A DNA stretch of 64,000 bases, taken from Rheinheimera sp. 4Y26 (lineage in GTDB: Bacteria; Pseudomonadota; Gammaproteobacteria; Enterobacterales; Alteromonadaceae). The notes beneath the pieces were generated by a model. It had not been told where the DNA came from and made no database searches. It saw nothing but the letters and a program-made list of their open reading frames with translations. Location: the NCBI RefSeq assembly GCF_025245835.1, contig NZ_JAOBWS010000001.1:434001-498000 (forward strand). The letters run 5' to 3'. Position 1 is the first letter of the stretch; each line of letters opens with the position of its first letter. Shown here in pieces: positions 49,646 to 57,986 of the stretch. The position numbers and the translations under genes are program-made.

Positions 49646-49675
49646 ACTGGTGGTGACTTGTTCTGATACCGTGCT

Positions 49676-49689
49676 CACCCATCAGGATT
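49676..49689 (-). pseudogene. Remnant of the tRNA-Arg 3' end (copy 1)
   Basis: The 14 bases match the T-arm/acceptor end of the tRNA-Arg gene at 57910-57986 (cacccatcaggatt). The rest of the tRNA is missing and hairpin module 1 takes its place. Confidence 0.6.
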
Positions 49690-49694
49690 CACTC

Positions 49695-49758
49695 GTCGCA
49701 TCCTGCGACTCGCCCTTCGGGCAGCGCGTTGCGCTGTGCCAAAACGCTCCCGGCGTTT
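49695..49758. repeat. Four-hairpin module, copy 1
   Basis: Consecutive hairpins: 49695-49709 (GTCGCA-TCC-TGCGAC), 49712-49722 (GCCC-TTC-GGGC), 49723-49735 (AGCGC-GTT-GCGCT) and 49742-49758 (AAACGC-TCCCG-GCGTTT). Read on the minus strand, the first and last loops show GGA. Confidence 0.8.
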
Positions 49759-49762
49759 ACTC

Positions 49763-49826
49763 GTATCATCCTGATACTCGCCCTGCGGGCCGGCTGCGCC
49801 GTTCCAATTTGTTCCAGACAAATTGG
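49763..49826. repeat. Four-hairpin module, copy 2
   Basis: 49763-49777 (GTATCA-TCC-TGATAC), 49780-49790 (GCCC-TGC-GGGC), 49791-49801 (CGGC-TGC-GCCG) and 49804-49826 (CCAATTTGT-TCCAG-ACAAATTGG, 9-bp stem). Same order and loops as copy 1 but different stem sequences, apart from the invariant GCCC hairpin. Confidence 0.8.
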
Positions 49827-49861
49827 TGGTCGAAGAAGGTTCAAATCTGTGGGAACCCCAA

Positions 49862-49890
49862 ACAAAAAAACCACCGCAAGGGTGGTTTGA
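49862..49890 (-). terminator. Terminator behind tRNA-Arg remnant 2
   Basis: AACCACC..GGTGGTT-type stem followed by a run of about eight T on the minus strand. The same ACCAC-stem terminator type follows the intact tRNA-Arg and remnant 3. Confidence 0.7.
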
Positions 49891-49895
49891 TTGTT

Positions 49896-49914
49896 TGGCG
49901 CACCCATCAGGATT
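49896..49914 (-). pseudogene. Remnant of the tRNA-Arg 3' end (copy 2)
   Basis: Nineteen bases identical to the 3' end of tRNA-Arg including CCA (57910-57928). Identity stops inside the T-loop, where hairpin module 3 begins. Confidence 0.75.
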
Positions 49915-49919
49915 GACTC

Positions 49920-49987
49920 GGTACATCCTGTACCTCGCCCTACGGGCGTTGCTTCGCAACGTCCCAAACGGCAGTCCTGCCGTTTGG
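49920..49987. repeat. Four-hairpin module, copy 3
   Basis: 49920-49934 (GGTACA-TCC-TGTACC), 49937-49947 (GCCC-TAC-GGGC), 49948-49960 (GTTGC-TTC-GCAAC) and 49964-49987 (CCAAACGGCA-GTCC-TGCCGTTTGG, 10-bp stem). The minus strand of the first resembles the CsrA consensus hairpin (ACAGGATGT). Confidence 0.8.
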
Positions 49988-50026
49988 TCGAACAACAGGT
50001 TCTCATCCGAAAGGGTACTATAAATG

Positions 50027-50055
50027 CAAAAACCACCTGAAAAGGTGGTTTTGAC
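50027..50055 (-). terminator. Terminator behind the left attachment copy of tRNA-Arg
   Basis: AAACCACC..GGTGGTTTT stem with T-run on the minus strand, just downstream of the duplicated tRNA 3' end. Confidence 0.65.
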
Positions 50056-50058
50056 ATT

Positions 50059-50105
<47 letters not shown>

Positions 50106-50243
50106 CGGAAAAAAGCCAATTAAATCATAAACTTCCATGTACCACCATAAACAAAGTTGAGCTATAACTGTCTGAAACATATCTGGTTTTTTTAGGCGGT
50201 TTGTTCTTCATCGTTCATTCATTTTCACGGCTGCACGATAGAA

Positions 50244-50266
50244 CTGCTACATAGGTGCTACATGGG
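50244..50266 (+). repeat. Left arm-type repeat next to the integrase gene
   Basis: A 23-bp sequence identical to 57832-57854, built of two GCTACAT units 11 bp apart. It lies just upstream of the integrase start and includes its GGGAG ribosome site, so integrase binding here could also repress its own gene. Confidence 0.7.
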
Positions 50267-50276
50267 AGAAAACTGA

Positions 50277-51512
50277 GTGGCAATCAGGGCGAAAATTAGC
50301 AACACGTCCATCAAGAATTTCAGGCCGGAAGACCAGCGTTTAAATGACACTGAAATCACCGGTTTTCATGCCCGTATTACGCCTGAAGGGAAAATCCACT
50401 ATTACCTCTATTACCGGCTTAATGGTAAACAAGTGAATTATAAGCTGGGCAGTGAAGGGCAAATTACACCAGCACTTGCCCGAGATCTCGCCAAGCAAAA
50501 AATTGGTGAAGTCTCCAAAGGTACTGACGTTCAGGAAGTGAAAAAACAAGAACGGATAGAGCAGAAGCAAGTTGAGCTTTCGACACTTCGAAAGTTTATC
50601 GAATCTAAATTCGCCCCCTGGCTTTATTCCCAAAATCCAAAAACGGCCAAAGCGCGCATTGACGTTTTTAACACCAGCTTTGCCCATCTGATGGATTATC
50701 AGTTAGCCGATATCAAACCGCATCTAATTGAGCAATGGCGCATCGAACGCAAGGCCAAAGGCAATAGCAATGCCACCATTAACCGGCAAATCACTAATCT
50801 GCAAAGCTGTTTAAGCCGAGCTGTGGAGTGGGAGGTGATTGAAAAGCATGAACTGAACAAAGTGAAGCGCTTGCCGGAAGACAATTCCAAAATTCGCTAC
50901 CTGTCCAAAGTCGAAGAAAAGGCACTGCGCGCCACCATGCGCGAGCGGGACGCCAGAATTAAACAAGAGCGCAGCAACGGCAATAAACATCGGGAAGAGC
51001 GCAATTATGAATTGTTGCCCTGTTTAAGCAGCAAAACCTTTGCTGATCATCTGGAACCCATAGTGCTGCTGGCAATGAATACCGGCATGCGGCGCGGCGA
51101 AATTCTTAGCCTGTGCTGGGAAAACGTCAGTTTTGATACAAAAACACTGACAGTGCAGTTTGAGCATGCCAAATCAGGCAAAACCCGCCATATACCGCTG
51201 AACGGTGAAGCGTTCCGCACTTTGCAAAGCTGGCAAGCCGACACCGGCAATACTGGCATTGTGTTTAAAGGCCAAAACGGCAAAGCCATGACCGACATTG
51301 GTAAAGGCTGGGACAAACTGCTGGAAGATGCCGGTATCAGCAACTTTCGCTTTCACGACCTGCGCCACCACTTTGCCAGCAAACTGGTAATGGCTAGTGT
51401 CGATTTAAATACCGTTCGTGAACTGTTAGGACACGGCGATTTAGCCATGACCTTACGTTATGCCCATTTAGCGCCGGAGCATAAAGCGGCTGCTGTGAAT
51501 TTGATTGGTTAA
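50277..51512 (+). CDS. int: Tyrosine-recombinase integrase
   Basis: 411 aa with a GTG start preceded by GGGAG. An N-terminal arm-binding domain (about 1-90) and core-binding domain (about 100-205) precede the catalytic domain with Arg272 (TGMRRGE), His360-x-x-Arg363 (HDLRHHFAS), His386 (LLGHGDLAM) and nucleophile Tyr395 (RYAHL). All key residues are intact. It should catalyse integration at tRNA-Arg and, with a directionality factor (possibly the AlpA-like protein), excision. Confidence 0.95.
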   Translation: MAIRAKISNTSIKNFRPEDQRLNDTEITGFHARITPEGKIHYYLYYRLNGKQVNYKLGSEGQITPALARDLAKQKIGEVSKGTDVQEVKKQERIEQKQVELSTLRKFIESKFAPWLYSQNPKTAKARIDVFNTSFAHLMDYQLADIKPHLIEQWRIERKAKGNSNATINRQITNLQSCLSRAVEWEVIEKHELNKVKRLPEDNSKIRYLSKVEEKALRATMRERDARIKQERSNGNKHREERNYELLPCLSSKTFADHLEPIVLLAMNTGMRRGEILSLCWENVSFDTKTLTVQFEHAKSGKTRHIPLNGEAFRTLQSWQADTGNTGIVFKGQNGKAMTDIGKGWDKLLEDAGISNFRFHDLRHHFASKLVMASVDLNTVRELLGHGDLAMTLRYAHLAPEHKAAAVNLIG

Positions 51513-51520
51513 GGATTGAT

Positions 51521-52381
51521 ATGGAATATTACCGTTTGGGTTCGGCTGCCAGAAAATTACATCTGAGCGAGGATGAATTATGGGATTTGGCCGAACAAGG
51601 AAAATTAACTTTTTCAGCCTACGTACCAGAACAGGTTGGCACCATCTGCAATCAGGAATTGTATGGTCTTGGCACTGGCACGTTATCGGGTTACACGACT
51701 ATCCCAAAATGGGCTCTCAAAAGTTTGTATCTACGTAAAACATTCAGAGTAGAGCAAATTGCAATTGAGCCCTCTCATCAAATTTCAATAACTAGCCGTG
51801 CTAATCCGTTCAAGGCTGACTTACCTAATAAGTATCTAAACGGATGGATTGTCGACCAAAATGAAAAATTCCAAAGTCAGAATGGTTTTTTCTGGATAGG
51901 GCTTAGGGAAGCTAATACAGGTTCTGACTTTTTTTCCGCACTTCAATTTATGATTGGTCAGCCACAAGCTGTTCAGGAAAGTGAAGGTCGAATAAATCTG
52001 ATCGAAAAGCAGCTTTTAGCATCGAAGCAACTTGAAACTTCACATATTGAGATTTCGATTGAAGAACTCAGAGTGTCAGAAACTTGTATCGTTGAACTTA
52101 AAAAAGTTTTGCGAATGTCAGACATAGATATCGATGACGGTAAAAGAGAATTCGACAAGTTGATTGTTAGAATGATGCAGCTTTTTCCAGAACACAAGCC
52201 TAGTCAACTTTGGGCAGTGTTAAAAGCCGACAGTATCAGAGCAGATCGTCTTTATGACACTGAAGAAATTTTAGATGAAGTTGGCACAGACGAGTTGATT
52301 TGGAGTGATCGGCATGGAAAGCCGATAACCTTGAAAAAGAAGAGCTTCTATAATCTAATAGACCGGCTTATTAAAGCCTAA
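51521..52381 (+). CDS. Element protein of unknown function with HTH-like N-terminus
   Basis: 286 aa, starting 8 bp after the integrase stop, so probably cotranscribed. The start MEYYRLGSAARKLHLSEDEL resembles the helix-turn-helix beginning of MerR/excisionase-like domains. A middle region (about 150-200) is charged and helical, and the C-terminus KKKSFYNLIDRLIKA is basic. Proteins of this general shape often lie beside integrases in proteobacterial elements. I do not recognise a specific family. Confidence 0.6.
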   Translation: MEYYRLGSAARKLHLSEDELWDLAEQGKLTFSAYVPEQVGTICNQELYGLGTGTLSGYTTIPKWALKSLYLRKTFRVEQIAIEPSHQISITSRANPFKADLPNKYLNGWIVDQNEKFQSQNGFFWIGLREANTGSDFFSALQFMIGQPQAVQESEGRINLIEKQLLASKQLETSHIEISIEELRVSETCIVELKKVLRMSDIDIDDGKREFDKLIVRMMQLFPEHKPSQLWAVLKADSIRADRLYDTEEILDEVGTDELIWSDRHGKPITLKKKSFYNLIDRLIKA

Positions 52382-52455
52382 TTTGCGATTATTTTTAAGA
52401 TGATCGCGGTGGGCAATGGCTATACAATAATTAATAAATCATTACGGACGTGTGC

Positions 52456-53019
52456 ATGCAGTATACAGGGCTTTTCGAAAGTGCAGTGAGGATGACTGAG
52501 GAGTTAGGGTTAAAATTAGTAATGCCTAAACAGTTTTTTTGCAGTGAAGAAATTTCAAGCGAAAAATTACATGCTATGGTTAGTGCGTTTGTTCCTTTTT
52601 TCAAAAGTAATGGATATTTTTCATCGAAGGATTTGAATAAGAACTGTGTTCAAGTTCATATAGCTGCTCAGAATTTATTCAAAGAAATGTTTGGTATTGA
52701 TAGTTATTTAACTATAGGTAGCATGCATGGGGATGGTTTCGATTACTGCGCGATCTCTTACGAAGAAATAAAATCAGAAATAAAAAAGCCAAATTTAGCT
52801 CAGGAATTGCGTGCTCATATATGGTTGACACTTTCTGATGGTTCTATCTTTGATTGGACTGGGCTGGCATGGTATTTAGAAAATTGCGGAATTACTGCAC
52901 CTTTAGAAGAATGTGCCATGCATATCCCACTCAATACCACCATGAAAGAATTAAGATATAAACCATTTTTAATAGGTAAAGATTATCTCGTTGTGACGGG
53001 TACAATTCGTGATTATTGA
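52456..53019 (+). CDS. Unknown AT-rich element protein, possible Cys-His-Asp fold
   Basis: 187 aa from ATG 52456 (GTG 52450 is also possible). It is markedly more AT-rich than the neighbouring genes. The order Cys64 (KNCVQVHIAAQNLF), His121 (LRAHIWLTLSDG) and Asp133 (IFDWTG) resembles the Cys-His-Asp layout of transglutaminase-like enzymes, but no family signature is certain. A separate unit with an AT-rich upstream region. Candidate cargo gene of the element. Confidence 0.55.
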   Translation: MQYTGLFESAVRMTEELGLKLVMPKQFFCSEEISSEKLHAMVSAFVPFFKSNGYFSSKDLNKNCVQVHIAAQNLFKEMFGIDSYLTIGSMHGDGFDYCAISYEEIKSEIKKPNLAQELRAHIWLTLSDGSIFDWTGLAWYLENCGITAPLEECAMHIPLNTTMKELRYKPFLIGKDYLVVTGTIRDY

Positions 53020-53148
53020 GCATTGAAAGTATTAAGTAAGGCGATTTGTAAACTGCCAATTTCATTTTTTACAACTCCTCAAATGACTCCTAGGAGTAAA
53101 TGACCAATTTAAAGTCCTCCGTGAACAACAACGAACACGGAGGCAACC

Positions 53149-53391
53149 ATGCCAAAATTCGAAAACAAGAAAGTCCTGTCAGAAATCGAAACCGCTGAAT
53201 ACATCAGCATGAGCCGTTCTTTCCTGCGTCAGTCGCGGATGGAAGGGAATCGCGAGAACCGCACGCCTGCGCCGCCATTTATCAAAATTGGCCGGTCGGT
53301 ACGTTACCTGAAAGATGATTTAGATCTGTGGTTAAGCAACTTGCAGAAGTTCAGTCACCTGAGCCAGTGCGGAGGTGCTTCGGTATGCTAA
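53149..53391 (+). CDS. AlpA-like DNA-binding regulator / excisionase
   Basis: 80 aa with GGAGG upstream. The helix-turn-helix VLSEIETAEYISMSRSFLRQ and the wing PPFIKIGRSVRYLKDDLDLWL are typical of AlpA/MerR-like excisionase proteins. In such elements this protein usually activates or directs integrase-mediated excision. Its stop overlaps the next ORF by seven bases. Confidence 0.85.
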   Translation: MPKFENKKVLSEIETAEYISMSRSFLRQSRMEGNRENRTPAPPFIKIGRSVRYLKDDLDLWLSNLQKFSHLSQCGGASVC

Positions 53392-53681
53392 TCCGTCATC
53401 CAAAACTATCTCCAATGGTTCAAGTGTTGCTGAATTGGTTTGTGGCAGATCCTAACAATGCCATTGAATGGTGTACCAGCGTTGGCCGAAGCTGTGGCGA
53501 ACTTGTCGTCATTGGAACAGCTCCGGCTCAATCCCTAAAGCCTTCACTGAATACCTTGTTGCAATATGGGCTATTACAGCAAACGGAAGTGTTTTTTAAC
53601 GGGCTACGCTGGTCACGGTTATCTGTAGCCGCCGATGTTAGTTTTCTTGCGCTAACGGAGTGTGCCGATGACTGCGCGTAG
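53385..53681 (+). CDS. Small element protein of unknown function
   Basis: 98 aa from ATG 53385, with GGAGGTG 8 bases upstream. Contains LLNWFVADPNNAIEWCTSVG and a winged-helix-like end (LLQYGLLQQTEVFFNGLRWSRL), so it may be a small DNA-binding protein. It overlaps both alpA (7 bp) and the rep gene (14 bp), so the three are translationally linked. Confidence 0.6.
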   Translation: MLIRHPKLSPMVQVLLNWFVADPNNAIEWCTSVGRSCGELVVIGTAPAQSLKPSLNTLLQYGLLQQTEVFFNGLRWSRLSVAADVSFLALTECADDCA

Positions 53682-55596
53682 ACCTTCTGAGCTTGAACGC
53701 TTGTTTCAGCAACTGGATGAAGTTGATTCCGCCTTTTATTTGTCGTTGCACCCAGACGACCGCAAGTTTTTGCATAAAAGGTTGGAAGGCTTGCCCTTTG
53801 CTATTCAGAAAATTTTGTTTAACAAATACCGCTCAACGGCAAATATCGTTAAAGCGAATATTGAGCTTCGGTTGGTGACGACTGAAATACACCGCATATT
53901 GCCGGTGATATTCCGTATTAATTTTGATATGTGTGAGAAGCAAAGGCGTGATTTAGCAGAAGAGCATTCGCGCCGAATGAGCCGGATTTTATTGCGAGAA
54001 CTCAACACAGCCCGTTCGCTGTTGTTACCGGAATTTCTGAAAACTTCCGAAATCGTTTCAGAAACTCATTCAGAAAATGCACTCGCGGTTTCAGAAAACC
54101 TCAACTCAGTTTCTGAAATCATTTCTGAAACCGTTCTGAAAAATTCCGAAATAGTTTTAGAAATTCCAGAAACAGTTTCTGAACCAGTTTCAGAAAATTT
54201 CCTGCAATTTCCAAAGGCATTTCAGAAACCCGTTAACGCGCAAGTCCGCACCACTGCCGGAGATTCCGGAAATATTCCTGAAGAAAACTCCGTTAACGCA
54301 CAAGTGCGGAGAAGGGCGGAACAGTCCGCATATTTTGCCTGTGCAAATTATATGAAACAGCTTGGTTTACAGCCGCCAAAACTCACGCGCAAAACAGGTT
54401 TTGCCGGTTGCCTGAAACGGTTGCAAGACGTGAAGTGGTGGTGCAGGCAACTTCGCCAGGTACAAAAACGCAAAAAAGAACAGGTAATGGCATTACTTGG
54501 AAAAGTCAGTAAAAGGGCTGGTAAATATTGCAGTGATTTAACTTTGAAAAACCGCTTAGCGGAAAAAGCAGCGTCCGCTGATTACATGGAACGCACTTTT
54601 ATCGTGAACCAAGATCAGCAGCGTTTTTCACTAAAAGAAATTGCCGATAAAAACGTATCGAATCCAACAATCCGCAAAGGCGAGTTAATGACGCGCATGC
54701 GTGGCACCGAAGATATTGCCAAAGAGCTGGGGCATATTGGCTCTTTTGTCACCTTAACTTGCCCGTCTAAATATCACTGCGCTTTTGCCAGCACAGGCGA
54801 CAGAAATCCAAATTGGAATGGTGCCACGCCTTACCAAGCCCAGCAGTATTTAAACCGAGTTTGGGCAAGAATTCGGGCAGAACTGGCACGACAGGAAATA
54901 GCTATTTATGGCCTGCGCGTGGCCGAGCCACAGCATGACGGCACACCGCATTGGCATATGATGTTGTTTATGGCACCCAAGCATTTAACAGCTTTTAGTG
55001 CCGTGGTAATGCAATACGCGCTGGCCGAAGATGGCGACGAAAAAGGCGCACAGGAAAACCGCGTTAAGCTGGTGGATATTGACCCAACCAAGGGTTCTGC
55101 CACTGGTTATATTGCCAAATACATTTCTAAAAATATCGACGGTAAAGGCATAGATACTGATATTGATGGTGGGGATGCCAATGTTGCAGCGCAGCGGGTT
55201 GAAGCATGGTCAAGCTGCTGGGGCATTCGCCAGTTTCAGCAAATTGGTGGTGTGCCGGTAACGCCTTGGCGTGAACTGCGCCGAGTAAAAGAAGGTAATG
55301 AACAGGACGAGCAGTTTGAAGCTGTGCGTGTAGCCGCAGATAAAGGCGACTGGAAAAGTTATGTGCAACTGATGGGCGGCGTGTTCTGTAAGCGCAAAGA
55401 CCTGCTAATCCGGCCTTATTACCATATTGAAGCAGACCAACAAACCGGACTGATTAAAACCAGCTGGTTTGATAACGTTATTGTGTTAAAGCTTAAAGGT
55501 GTTCTTTATGCAGGTCAGGCAATTATCACCCGCCTGCACCAGTGGCGACTGGAACAGGCCGTAGGCCGCTCTTCGCCTTTACTTGGAGTTCTGTAA
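53668..55596 (+). CDS. Replication initiator of phage GPA type (HUH, two Tyr)
   Basis: 642 aa. I start at ATG 53668, seven bases after GGAG. The catalytic part has an HUH motif His428-Trp-His430 (GTPHWHMMLFM) and a Y2 pair Tyr481-x3-Tyr485 (YIAKYISKN), as in phage P2 gpA rolling-circle endonucleases. An N-terminal helical domain is joined to it by a low-complexity linker (about 122-190) full of Ser-Glu dipeptides whose DNA holds seven exact TTTCwGAAA 9-mers. A 20-aa tandem repeat (VNAQVR) follows. It should nick the element at an origin and drive rolling-circle replication. Confidence 0.9.
   Translation: MTARRPSELERLFQQLDEVDSAFYLSLHPDDRKFLHKRLEGLPFAIQKILFNKYRSTANIVKANIELRLVTTEIHRILPVIFRINFDMCEKQRRDLAEEHSRRMSRILLRELNTARSLLLPEFLKTSEIVSETHSENALAVSENLNSVSEIISETVLKNSEIVLEIPETVSEPVSENFLQFPKAFQKPVNAQVRTTAGDSGNIPEENSVNAQVRRRAEQSAYFACANYMKQLGLQPPKLTRKTGFAGCLKRLQDVKWWCRQLRQVQKRKKEQVMALLGKVSKRAGKYCSDLTLKNRLAEKAASADYMERTFIVNQDQQRFSLKEIADKNVSNPTIRKGELMTRMRGTEDIAKELGHIGSFVTLTCPSKYHCAFASTGDRNPNWNGATPYQAQQYLNRVWARIRAELARQEIAIYGLRVAEPQHDGTPHWHMMLFMAPKHLTAFSAVVMQYALAEDGDEKGAQENRVKLVDIDPTKGSATGYIAKYISKNIDGKGIDTDIDGGDANVAAQRVEAWSSCWGIRQFQQIGGVPVTPWRELRRVKEGNEQDEQFEAVRVAADKGDWKSYVQLMGGVFCKRKDLLIRPYYHIEADQQTGLIKTSWFDNVIVLKLKGVLYAGQAIITRLHQWRLEQAVGRSSPLLGVL
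54034..54228. repeat. Cluster of seven palindromic TTTCwGAAA motifs within rep
   Basis: Exact copies begin at 54034, 54056, 54089, 54110, 54122, 54188 and 54220. Spacings are 22, 33, 21, 12, 66 and 32 bp, close to whole turns of B-DNA. They fall in two reading frames (FLK/FQK and SE codons). Several near-matches lie between. A candidate replication origin or initiator-binding region. Confidence 0.6.
54231..54310 (+). repeat. 60-bp-period direct repeat in rep
   Basis: The 20-mers at 54231-54250 and 54291-54310 (cgttaacgc[g/a]caagt[c/g]cg) match at nearly all positions and encode the repeated VNAQVR. Confidence 0.65.
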
Positions 55597-55931
55597 ATAA
55601 CTGTACTGATGATTTTGAGTGTTTTTTGTCAATAGCGGGCTAAATGCCTTTTGTTTTGCCTTAAGGCATCCAAGCAAAGGTTTCAGAACTACTGATTAAA
55701 CACTTAGAAACATACCATAAGTTCAAGTTAAATAGCTGACATAAAAAGTGTCTAGCTAAGCCTGTGAAGTCCGGATTATCCTTTGTAAAGTTCTAAAACT
55801 AAGTTCGATTTGACGTCGGTAAATATGCTTTGATAGAGATTGGTCTAATTTATATGGTTGTATAAATTGGACTTTTTTGCTAAAAATCGCTAAATATAAA
55901 ACGTATTCTGCAAAAGGAATGGTATTCAAAA
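55597..55931 (+). other. AT-rich intergenic region in the element
   Basis: About 335 bp between the rep gene and the two-TM gene. It is strongly AT-rich. A minus-strand frame of 80 codons (55756-55998) overlaps the next gene and lacks a ribosome site, so I see no gene here. The promoter of the next gene is likely inside. Confidence 0.35.
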
Positions 55932-56927
55932 ATGGATTCTGGAACAAAAGGAAAAACGGAAAAAAAACGCTCAAGTTTTTTCGATAGTGATAATGCATTA
56001 CTTTTTTGCGCTCTCTTCATTATTGGTTTTCTTCTCATCGCGGTTTATCAATACTTCCAGCCAGAGACAAACGTTTCACATGAATGGTATTTCAAGTACC
56101 TGTTGATTTTTTTGAAGGAAGCGGGAATCGCATTAATGATCGCTTCTGTTTTGGCGTTCACAGTTGAGAGCATAAACAAGAAAAAACAAATCGAAGAAAT
56201 TAGAGTTTTTAATTCAGAGGTAAGCCGCAACGTGCTAGAAGCGGTATATCGAACTATAGTGCCAGAATCGATATTTGAAGAGATTAAGAGAAGTACACTT
56301 GAACAATGTTTGCTGAAGAAAAAATCAAAGCTTGAATACCACCTCAGCCACACTAAAGAGTGCATTACTCTAATTCCTCCTGATTTGAAGGGCAACGTCT
56401 TGCAATGCGAGGTTACAACATCTTACGTTTTAGAGAACATATCTGAAAATGATAAGCAACATACGGTTATTTATGAATTATCTTGCGATTTAGACTCGCG
56501 TCTCGCTGCACACATGGTTATGAACCAAGTGATCATTGGCGATAAGTCTTTATCGAAGGATGAAATTAAGGCATTAATTCACCAAAATCCCGCAACTAAT
56601 GGCATTCGTTTTGAGTATCCGTGTTTGGTTAAAGCCAACAGTAGCATAGAAGTTTTTTTTGCGGGTACGACTTACAAGCGACTAGAAGATACGGAAGTTT
56701 GGACTACCGTTTTACCTACTGAGTCAATGGAGCTGGAACTCTTTTTCCCTCAAGATATTGACGTATATGCCGATAGTAATCATAGTAAGGAACTAAAAGA
56801 GGAGTTCCGTAATCAAAAGGTCTACAACAAGACTTTCAGGCTGGATTATGGTATATTCCCATACCAAGGGATTTCTTTCTGGTGGAGAAAAAGCGTTCGT
56901 GCCCACCATGAAGACGCAAAAAAATAG
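55932..56927 (+). CDS. Two-TM membrane protein of unknown function
   Basis: 331 aa, AT-rich. Two membrane helices (about 24-44 and 58-78) are followed by a coiled-coil segment (about 80-100) and a 230-residue soluble domain with many beta-strands. The order suggests a membrane-anchored cytoplasmic domain. I do not recognise the family. It stands alone in the element as a cargo-type gene. Confidence 0.65.
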   Translation: MDSGTKGKTEKKRSSFFDSDNALLFCALFIIGFLLIAVYQYFQPETNVSHEWYFKYLLIFLKEAGIALMIASVLAFTVESINKKKQIEEIRVFNSEVSRNVLEAVYRTIVPESIFEEIKRSTLEQCLLKKKSKLEYHLSHTKECITLIPPDLKGNVLQCEVTTSYVLENISENDKQHTVIYELSCDLDSRLAAHMVMNQVIIGDKSLSKDEIKALIHQNPATNGIRFEYPCLVKANSSIEVFFAGTTYKRLEDTEVWTTVLPTESMELELFFPQDIDVYADSNHSKELKEEFRNQKVYNKTFRLDYGIFPYQGISFWWRKSVRAHHEDAKK

Positions 56928-57059
56928 GTTCTGTTTAGGCTAGCAAATTTGCTGGCTGAAGTTATATTTTTTACTTTAATTTTTTGAAAACTAATGCCAA
57001 CAGCAGTAATTATAAGAGTTGCGTGAATGTAACCTCTGCGTTGGATAAGGGAGATACTT

Positions 57060-57149
57060 ATGTATGCAAGATTAGCTGTAGGTGTTCGCGATTCCAAATT
57101 AGCAGTGGGAGTTAGAGACCAAAAGGCTAATGTCGGGGTTCGCGACTGA
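57060..57149 (+). CDS. 29-aa repeat peptide
   Basis: A short ORF beginning ATG 57060, ten bases after GGGAG, ending TGA 57149, and followed by a strong terminator. Its sequence is a leader MYAR then three nine-residue units sharing (A/N)VGVRD: LAVGVRDSK, LAVGVRDQK, ANVGVRD. The corresponding codons differ at nearly every synonymous position (GCT/GCA, GTA/GTG/GTC, GGT/GGA/GGG, CGC/AGA), so the peptide, not the DNA, is conserved between repeats. Function unknown. Confidence 0.7.
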   Translation: MYARLAVGVRDSKLAVGVRDQKANVGVRD

Positions 57150-57185
57150 CTGATTTAATGGTAATTAAATTAAATGCAACTTCAA

Positions 57186-57211
57186 AAACCCGCCTAAAGC
57201 GGGTTTTTTTT
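57186..57211 (+). terminator. Rho-independent terminator after the repeat peptide gene
   Basis: AAACCCGC..GCGGGTTT stem with loop CTAAA and eight T. Confidence 0.9.
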
Positions 57212-57486
57212 ACTTCAGTATGAATCATATTTGAATTATTTCTCGGCAACTCTATGGCTGTAGCGTCTTGTTCACCCCCCCCCAAAAAAACTAAGCCCAT
57301 CCAGACCGCGACGTTAAGCTGCTTAGCTCTGTGGTTCTATTTGCAGTGGCACACTGAATTCGACCACCTGATAAGGTATATGTTATGACTGGATTAGGTA
57401 AAAACTAACGTTAGCAATTCAGGTAAAGTGAAGATTCTTTTTTCAAAAATCGACTATTTCCAGATCTGTATGTCGCTCAGATGGCA
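57212..57486. other. Non-coding region with C9A7 tract
   Basis: 275 bp with no gene seen. It holds a homopolymer run of nine C followed by seven A at 57275-57290. Confidence 0.4.
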
Positions 57487-57699
57487 CTAAGGGTTTATAA
57501 AAACAATATACCCAAACCATCCAAATGCTATAACCGATAACACACGCACCAATCCAGATTTAGTCTGCCGTGAGCAATCCGAAATCACTGGTAGGGTATT
57601 GACCAGTAAAATGATCACGCCGTAAGCAATAACTACCCAAATCGCAAAAGTGAAAACAGACCCATTTAGCTGATTCATTGCTTCCGTTGCATTGCTCAT
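57487..57699 (-). CDS. Small two-TM membrane protein
   Basis: 70 aa with GAGGG five bases before the ATG. Two helices, about 14-35 (VFTFAIWVVIAYGVIILLV) and 52-68 (VLSVIAFGWFGYIVFIN), are joined by a charged loop. It faces the repeat peptide gene. Function unknown; holin-like or superinfection-type roles are only guesses. Confidence 0.65.
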   Translation of the reverse strand: MSNATEAMNQLNGSVFTFAIWVVIAYGVIILLVNTLPVISDCSRQTKSGLVRVLSVIAFGWFGYIVFINP

Positions 57700-57831
57700 T
57701 ATTTCCCTCTTCGCTCAACAGTTATGAGCCCATTCTGAATACAGAGATTTCAAGTTACAACACGGGATAATGACTTGGAAGGTGTTTTTGCTCACCAAAA
57801 CAACTTTTTTCAGCCGACGGTTGCTATAAAT

Positions 57832-57854
57832 CTGCTACATAGGTGCTACATGGG
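57832..57854 (+). repeat. Right arm-type repeat
   Basis: Identical to 50244-50266 in the same orientation, 53 bp from the right attachment site. Confidence 0.7.
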
Positions 57855-57876
57855 GAAAGTGACAGGTACAAAAAAA

Positions 57877-57905
57877 CCACTTGAGTTGCCTCTAAGTGGT
57901 TGATT
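57877..57905 (-). terminator. Terminator of tRNA-Arg
   Basis: AACCACTT..AAGTGGTT stem with a T7 run on the minus strand, directly beyond the tRNA 3' end. Confidence 0.75.
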
Positions 57906-57907
57906 TA

Positions 57908-57986
<79 letters not shown>

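Follow-up and report, generated by a model that had tools for sequence, protein, structure and literature searches.

GGA-rich tRNA-linked repeats beyond the Enterobacteriales that show signs of mobility: a hairpin array at tRNA-Arg(CCG) in Rheinheimera sp. 4Y26

The minus strand of the 64,000-nucleotide stretch of Rheinheimera sp. 4Y26 DNA analysed here (the window) carries, at positions 49671-50018, three modules of four hairpins each. This hairpin array is more than chance. R1, a covariance model of the module that was built from 50 copies with no E. coli sequence in training, finds related modules in many genomes and also matches the tRNA-linked repeats (TLRs) of E. coli. The modules thus amount to a GGA-rich form of these repeats that occurs beyond the Enterobacteriales and for which there is some evidence of mobility. 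The anatomy, the covariation, the strand bias with respect to tRNA genes, the duplicated 3' end, the homology to the E. coli TLRs, the wide distribution and one clean insertion are all computed here. On balance we think it probable that the array represents a widespread, probably mobile family of TLRs, the RNA of which titrates CsrA along with stable-RNA synthesis.

Anatomy of the array and its host gene

Read on the minus strand, every module has the same order: a long hairpin with a GGA loop, a short hairpin, a hairpin of the form GCCC-GNA-GGGC, and a last hairpin with GGA in its loop. Module C (49913-49991, minus strand), placed by the covariance-model match and by its letters, consists of hairpin 4 (49964-49987; 10 bp, GGA in the loop), hairpin 3 (49948-49960), hairpin 2 (49937-49947; GCCC-GTA-GGGC) and hairpin 1 (49920-49934; GGTACA-GGA-TGTACC), all on the minus strand and all legible in the letters, with hairpin 3 supported by the predicted fold and the other three by the model match. 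In module B (49756-49830, minus strand), which R1 matches at 79.1 bits, the four hairpins lie at 49804-49826, 49791-49801, 49780-49790 and 49763-49777. Those of module A (49688-49758, minus strand) lie at 49742-49758, 49723-49735, 49712-49722 and 49695-49709; here the R1 match is of 46.9 bits, covers 49688-49751 and stops short of 49758. A preliminary description of this DNA had proposed three four-hairpin modules, and both the minus-strand anatomy and the covariance model show them to be real. The letters likewise agree with its stems GTCGCA/TGCGAC, GTATCA/TGATAC and GGTACA/TGTACC, with last stems of 6, 9 and 10 bp, and with GGA in six of the twelve loops of the minus strand. Its tandem arrangement holds for modules A and B, which abut, but not for B and C, which are 82 bp apart, and the feature extends further, to about 50018.

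The gap between B and C is itself structured. It contains a 19-nt duplicate of the tRNA-Arg 3' end, beginning at the T-loop (AATCC...GCGCCA; 49896-49914, minus strand), detected by repeat search and in the letters and identical over 19 nt to 50061-50079 and to the end of the tRNA-Arg gene; a second terminator-like hairpin (49864-49893), the letters of which read ACCACC..GGTGGT plus a T run on the minus strand; and the putative leader of modules B and A (CACAGATTTGAACC...TTCGA; 49830-49859, minus strand), which by eye appears to be an inverted partial copy of the T-arm. The leader of module C (GTACCC..GGAT-GAG-AAC..GTTCGA; 49988-50018, minus strand), recognised in the letters and the predicted fold, looks, again by eye, like the acceptor and T-arm sequence of the tRNA copied in inverted and degenerate form, and its GTACCC..GGAT is predicted to pair with ATCC..GGGUGC of the 3'-end copy at 49896-49914, closing the unit. 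Behind module A the repeat search revealed a third, degenerate copy of the tRNA 3' end (49671-49689, minus strand; 84%), and behind the tRNA 3' part that precedes the array there is a terminator-like inverted repeat (50020-50061, minus strand; arms 50020-50038 and 50043-50061). The proposal that this is a tRNA-derived RNA is thereby upheld for the flanks, with their 19-nt tRNA 3'-end copy and inverted partial copy, and for the flanks only.

The folding energy of 49680-50000 is far below that of shuffled sequence on either strand (z -5.7 on the plus and -6.0 on the minus strand; none of 100 shuffles was as stable). Folded alone, modules B and C form exactly the four hairpins described, and the minimum-energy fold of module A retains only hairpin 1 as drawn. 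The whole of unit C is also unusually stable (z -3.8, with none of 200 shuffles as stable); in its minimum-energy fold, however, the leader competes with hairpins 4 and 2. This and the different fold of module A count against the explanation that we prefer.

The host of the array is the tRNA-Arg(CCG) gene at 57910-57986 on the minus strand, identified by ARAGORN and Rfam. An integrative element of 7.8 kb (50106-57907) now separates gene and array; it is recognisable by its tyrosine integrase (50277-51512), a phage replication protein of the GPA type (53662-55596) and 47-bp attachment-site (att) repeats at both ends, and it also holds a small HTH_17-like ORF (at 53149) that scores below the Pfam cut-off. 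The inner repeat (50059-50105, minus strand), by sequence comparison, is a copy of the 3' part of tRNA-Arg identical to 57908-57954; in the window the array follows this 47-bp tRNA-Arg 3' fragment, with the intact gene 7.8 kb off. In relatives the array lies 63-73 nt behind tRNA-Arg(ccg) (loci L211, L266, L231, L065 and L043). With the integrative element putting 7.8 kb between it and the tRNA promoter, the array of strain 4Y26 may be silent.

The repeat family and its kinship with E. coli TLRs

Among 91 copies (three of them from the window) there are 35 distinct first-hairpin stems, 28 of which have at least three outer Watson-Crick pairs, a level reached by 2.3% when the arms are re-paired at random. 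Across 115 distinct copies, 96.8% of the cells at R1 pairs are paired, as opposed to 67.4% after shuffling and 31-50% with the partners slid, although the alignment was fitted to R1 itself and hence leans towards the structure. In the same alignment 550 cells show a double change (156 when shuffled), and a double change is seen in 16 of the 17 pairs against 12.9 when shuffled, 16 being reached by 6 of 500 shuffles.

With a threshold of E<=1e-3, R1 detects modules in 41 of the 59 family genomes, with up to 38 copies each; with E<=1e-4 it detects them in 90 of 398 phylum genomes. The preliminary description had looked to related genomes for further copies and for stems maintained in homologues, and the covariance-model search and the pairing on the 115 copies bear it out on both counts. 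One family of another class with small genomes (f55; our guess is Zetaproteobacteria) is exceptionally module-rich, with counts in part of at least 11. The genome of strain 4Y26 itself gives ten matches at E<=1, three inside the window; the best of those outside scores 53.8 bits and lies behind a tRNA-Arg(acg) gene. Hairpins 2 and 1 were also cast as a DNA pattern, with about 0.1 chance matches estimated; it occurs in at least 112 stretches of genome_contigs, and the 80 loci listed include Rheinheimera, Alishewanella, Halomonas, Kosakonia, Rhodanobacter and Microbulbifer, as well as a zetaproteobacterium, Geothrix, Desulfobulbaceae and Bdellovibrionales, several of these records being metagenome bins. 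Nucleotide searches of phages, plasmids and E. coli matched the tRNA 3' part and also brought up two Proteus mirabilis records that carry modules; blastn against E. coli did not match the module, a limit of blastn, since R1 finds E. coli members. A viral origin was considered and dismissed: the six viral_contigs matches to a loose pattern look like chance, and by eye their flanks lack a fourth hairpin. Records of Rhodanobacter and Dyella (L052, L091 and L106) contain abutting modules whose orientation alternates, which we take to be a mosaic like BIMEs, and two further loci (L257 and L259) show overlapping pairs of R1 matches in opposite orientation.

Three TLR loci of E. coli were examined: rttR/tyrT, the lysT operon and rrnB T1-T2. 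All four rttR/tyrT units are matched by R1 (E 5e-5 to 1e-3, in 1.8 kb searched without filters); with default filters and 170 kb, no more than three rttR units came in at E<=0.05 (E 0.004-0.011). The lysT operon is matched four times (E about 1e-6), the match starting inside the tRNA 3' end, and there the RtT model of Rfam (RF00391) also exceeds its cut-off four times. The four spacers of this operon that match both R1 and RtT (L312, NC_000913.3:779600-781600) are blank in the feature table of the record. In the rrnB T1-T2 spacer the R1 match (E 2.8e-10) places a module between two copies of the 5S 3' end; RtT gives no match to this spacer at E<=1. Elsewhere RF00391 passes its cut-off of 45 in 4 of 18 other loci, and copy C of the window, at 21.2 bits, falls below that gathering cut-off. 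The lysT, rttR/tyrT and rrnB matches are the tRNA-linked repeats of E. coli. E. coli K-12 has 22 TLRs at ten loci, and the last 18-19 bp of each repeat the host RNA's 3' end exactly (PMC8144298). The window has such an end at 49896-49914, identical to the 3' end of the upstream stable RNA, and shares the hairpin core of the E. coli members, as the R1 matches to rttR (four), lysT (four) and rrnB (one) demonstrate.

PMC8144298 dates the first description of E. coli TLRs to 1978 and gives them no known function before the 2021 study of RrA/B/F; it also records that an earlier starvation phenotype of one TLR was retracted, a phenotype still cited in PMC4986893. RrB has kept its location in at least 31 species, which belong to 12 genera, every one of them in the Enterobacteriales (PMC8144298). 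In the open-licence literature we found no report of TLR mobility, nor of TLR members outside Enterobacteriales (for RtT, Pasteurellaceae also).

Genomic sites, mobility and the CsrA link

Sites were analysed in 188 copies, of which 97 belong to the window or the family genomes and 91 to named loci chosen by the pattern; the R1 searches had yielded 134 and 117 matches, from which weaker, overlapping or repeat ones were removed by hand. For 75 of the 188 copies there is a same-strand tRNA gene no more than 450 nt upstream, at a median gap of 81 nt, and for none is there one on the opposite strand; downstream tRNA genes are found on the same strand in 21 and on the opposite strand in eight. TTCGA immediately precedes the module in 60 of the 75 tRNA-site copies. 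The host genes comprise 18 kinds of tRNA, 5S rRNA (L192) and, by eye, a tuf-like 3' end (L190). In two genomes, G026 and G027, 5S rRNA 3' ends are directly followed by modules (L192-L194, L205, L206 and L208), the arrangement of E. coli rrnB T1-T2; the 5S gene is confirmed by Rfam in L192 and placed by sequence alone in G027. For 51 copies with a called upstream frame and neither a tRNA gene nor a frame overlap, 34 of these frames share the strand of the module (p 0.024).

The right flank shares an exact 12-nt direct repeat with the upstream 500 nt in 68 of the 188 copies, against 0.9% in a swapped control. By blastn, a repeat of the upstream gene's end starts at the right end of the module in 64 of 175 copies, and the other 111 are without a direct repeat; at the tuf-like locus the copied stretch extends through the terminator (101 positions at 95%). 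An exact inverted leader match of at least 8 nt occurs in 20 of 188 copies (control 2%). The pairing of leader and own 3' copy is only modestly specific: of 87 copies at tRNA sites, 25 have their own partner among the best 10%, as do 17 of the 89 other copies.

Some observations speak for mobility. In one genome a transposase-like gene carries a module as a clean 72-bp insertion when compared with its uninterrupted paralogue, with no target duplication visible, and identical module copies occur within single genomes. One Proteus record has both Rhs-like genes with the array and Rhs-like genes without it. Eighteen of 164 usable copies overlap open frames of at least 150 codons, ten in the same and eight in the opposite orientation, the frames having been called with a crude finder and being candidate genes only. 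The wide scatter, the identical copies and the clean insertion support the preliminary description where it had suggested a structured mobile repeat family. Mobilisation by a Y1 transposase of the RAYT kind was rejected because neither Y1 query matched in G026, G027, G076, G082 or G095, which have 10-31 copies each; against this, PF01797 (Y1) matches are present in the high-copy genomes G035 (38 copies), G062 and G068, and the genome of strain 4Y26 gives one match, to the second query only. That query is only weakly Y1-like (17.8 bits against a cut-off of 23 for PF01797, and 17.5 bits against 80 for the REP-associated transposase model), and from these sub-cut-off profiles and by eye its gene is probably transposase-like. 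The Y1 searches of copy-bearing genomes linked no transposase to the module copies.

GGA is present in loop 1 in 166 of 182 and in loop 4 in 154 of 180 copies in which the hairpin was found, out of 185 distinct copies (shuffles 13%); these rates exclude the 91 pattern-selected copies, which have AGGAT by design, and R1, being trained on GGA-bearing copies, under-detects those without GGA. Matches below 40 bits still have GGA, on either side, in 17 of 18 cases. The form A(N)GGAN is found in loop 1 of 135 of 185 copies, as compared with 11 for the reversed strings and none for the other strand, and ANGGAN is the loop bound by the CsrA homologue RsmE (PMC7652899). At least 114 of 182 copies have a GNA triloop in the second hairpin. 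The eight tRNA-linked units of E. coli that were examined have no GGA on the hairpin-4 side, and seven of them none on the hairpin-1 side; the 19 tRNA-operon TLRs of E. coli are predicted not to bind CsrA (PMC8144298). RrA/B/F are processed RNAs that bind Hfq and CsrA, CsrA binding requiring GGA motifs; RrB binds both proteins in vitro, CsrA via its GGA motifs with a Kd of about 100 nM, and was proposed to titrate CsrA in step with stable-RNA synthesis, while changes in RrA/B/F have modest phenotypes (PMC8144298). CsrA is encoded in 83 of 90 R1-positive as against 137 of 308 R1-negative genomes (Fisher 1e-17), an association confounded by ancestry and weak inside the same class (16 of 49 versus 1 of 20 among the genomes listed, p 0.015). 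This cross-table was read from lists, with two outer groups (16 and 49) recounted by script and 18 genomes of the own order by eye; the seven R1-positive genomes that show no CsrA include three that are less than 75% complete.

In the explanation that we prefer, modules of about 72-80 nt would be transcribed within the tRNA-Arg precursor on the minus strand. A unit is made up of a leader, the four hairpins and, after them, another copy of the tRNA 3' end, at which it would be cut from the tRNA transcript. By analogy with RrB, the GGA hairpins 1 and 4 of a module may bind a CsrA dimer, so that RNA released from a tRNA or 5S transcript would titrate CsrA in step with stable-RNA synthesis. The module itself would spread as a small mobile element, inserting mostly after GA and often after the TTCGA of a T-loop sequence. 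A more general version seems to us conceivable but tentative: TLRs would be tiny mobile elements (about 72 bp, four hairpins) across several phyla. Stable-RNA genes would be their targets, entered after GA and then restored by a second 3' end that includes the terminator, with an inverted copy as leader; their paired CsrA sites would couple CsrA activity to the synthesis of tRNA and rRNA in any organism that has CsrA, and the tRNA-linked forms of E. coli would be derivatives that no longer bind CsrA. Should CsrA-type loops be kept by most tRNA- and 5S-linked copies in several classes, a CsrA buffer coupled to stable RNA and spread as mobile DNA becomes an idea open to test. If true, the rrnB T1-T2 terminator of vectors would carry a member of a mobile family. 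This terminator is widely used in vectors (PMC8144298).

Alternative explanations and known systems

The strongest competitor, which we nevertheless regard as rather unlikely, is that the family is a purely selfish DNA repeat of the REP or MITE kind. A recombinase or transposase would then recognise the hairpins in single-stranded DNA, with the GNA and GGA loops as recognition features, and there would be no function as RNA. The insertion without a visible target duplication, the identical copies in one genome, the overlap with long open frames in both orientations, the frequent GNA triloops and the Y1 genes of some high-copy genomes would all fit such a repeat. It accounts poorly for the strand bias with respect to tRNA genes (75 versus 0), for a loop 1 so close to the ANGGAN bound by RsmE (PMC7652899), and for a family member that is a processed RNA binding CsrA (PMC8144298), and the five genomes with no Y1 match to either query also speak against it. 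Decay of a tandem tRNA cluster, with the hairpins as remains of decayed tRNAs, would explain the repeated tRNA 3' ends and the inverted T-arm pieces; it is contradicted by the covarying four-hairpin core, conserved also at non-tRNA genes, and is the least probable of all the readings.

Tyrosine integrases at tRNA genes typically have break points in the T-loop and the anticodon loop. Together with the integrase element at tRNA-Arg(CCG) and its 47-bp att repeat, this suggests that the tRNA 3'-end repeats might be integrase scars at a tRNA attachment site and the hairpins attachment arms. The att repeat, however, reaches from the anticodon arm to the 3' end rather than starting at TTCGA, and the presence of modules also at tuf-like, 5S, Rhs-like and transposase-like genes makes this reading improbable; a scar of the nearby integrase was rejected on the latter ground. 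A shade less probable still is a stand-alone sponge RNA of the CsrB/RsmX type. The six GGA loops in 300 nt recall such an RNA, as do the rsmX matches of two relatives, which at 35.9 and 28.5 bits stay below the cut-off of 56, but the location is tied to stable-RNA genes and each module has two GGA hairpins, not many. Homology to CsrB was rejected because the window has no CsrB/RsmX match in Rfam at the gathering cut-off, tRNA being the sole match. What stands of the CsrB-like sponge in the preliminary description is thus the strand, the GGA loops and a relative, RrB, that binds CsrA in vitro (PMC8144298), and not membership of the CsrB family.

The mobile TLR family that we favour can be set against known systems. 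With the sponge RNAs CsrB, CsrC and RsmX-Z the modules share GGA hairpin loops, and differ in having few sites and being tied to stable-RNA operons. Like REP sequences and REPINs with their RAYT transposases, they are short, palindromic and multi-copy, and insert cleanly; unlike these, they are multi-hairpin units of fixed order with an inconsistent Y1 association, and the GTAG or CGTC end tag of REP (PMC3733652) was not seen in the modules, by eye only. RtT RNA of the tyrT operon (RF00391) has the same unit, from the leader to the tRNA 3'-end copy, but in contrast to copy C of the window the tyrT units have no GGA on the hairpin-4 side and three of four none on the hairpin-1 side. RrA, RrB and RrF, located between dual rrn terminators, resemble the array in having hairpins with GGA loops between two copies of the host-RNA 3' end; those are 5S-linked, whereas the window array is tRNA-Arg-linked and has three modules. 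As in the TLRs, copies in relatives lie downstream of tRNA or rRNA genes, on the same strand and with an 18-19 nt copy of the gene 3' end, and the order of hairpins is common to the E. coli units and the present copies. Unlike the TLRs of E. coli, however, most of the present copies keep GGA in loops 1 and 4, and they occur far outside Enterobacteriales and also in coding genes.
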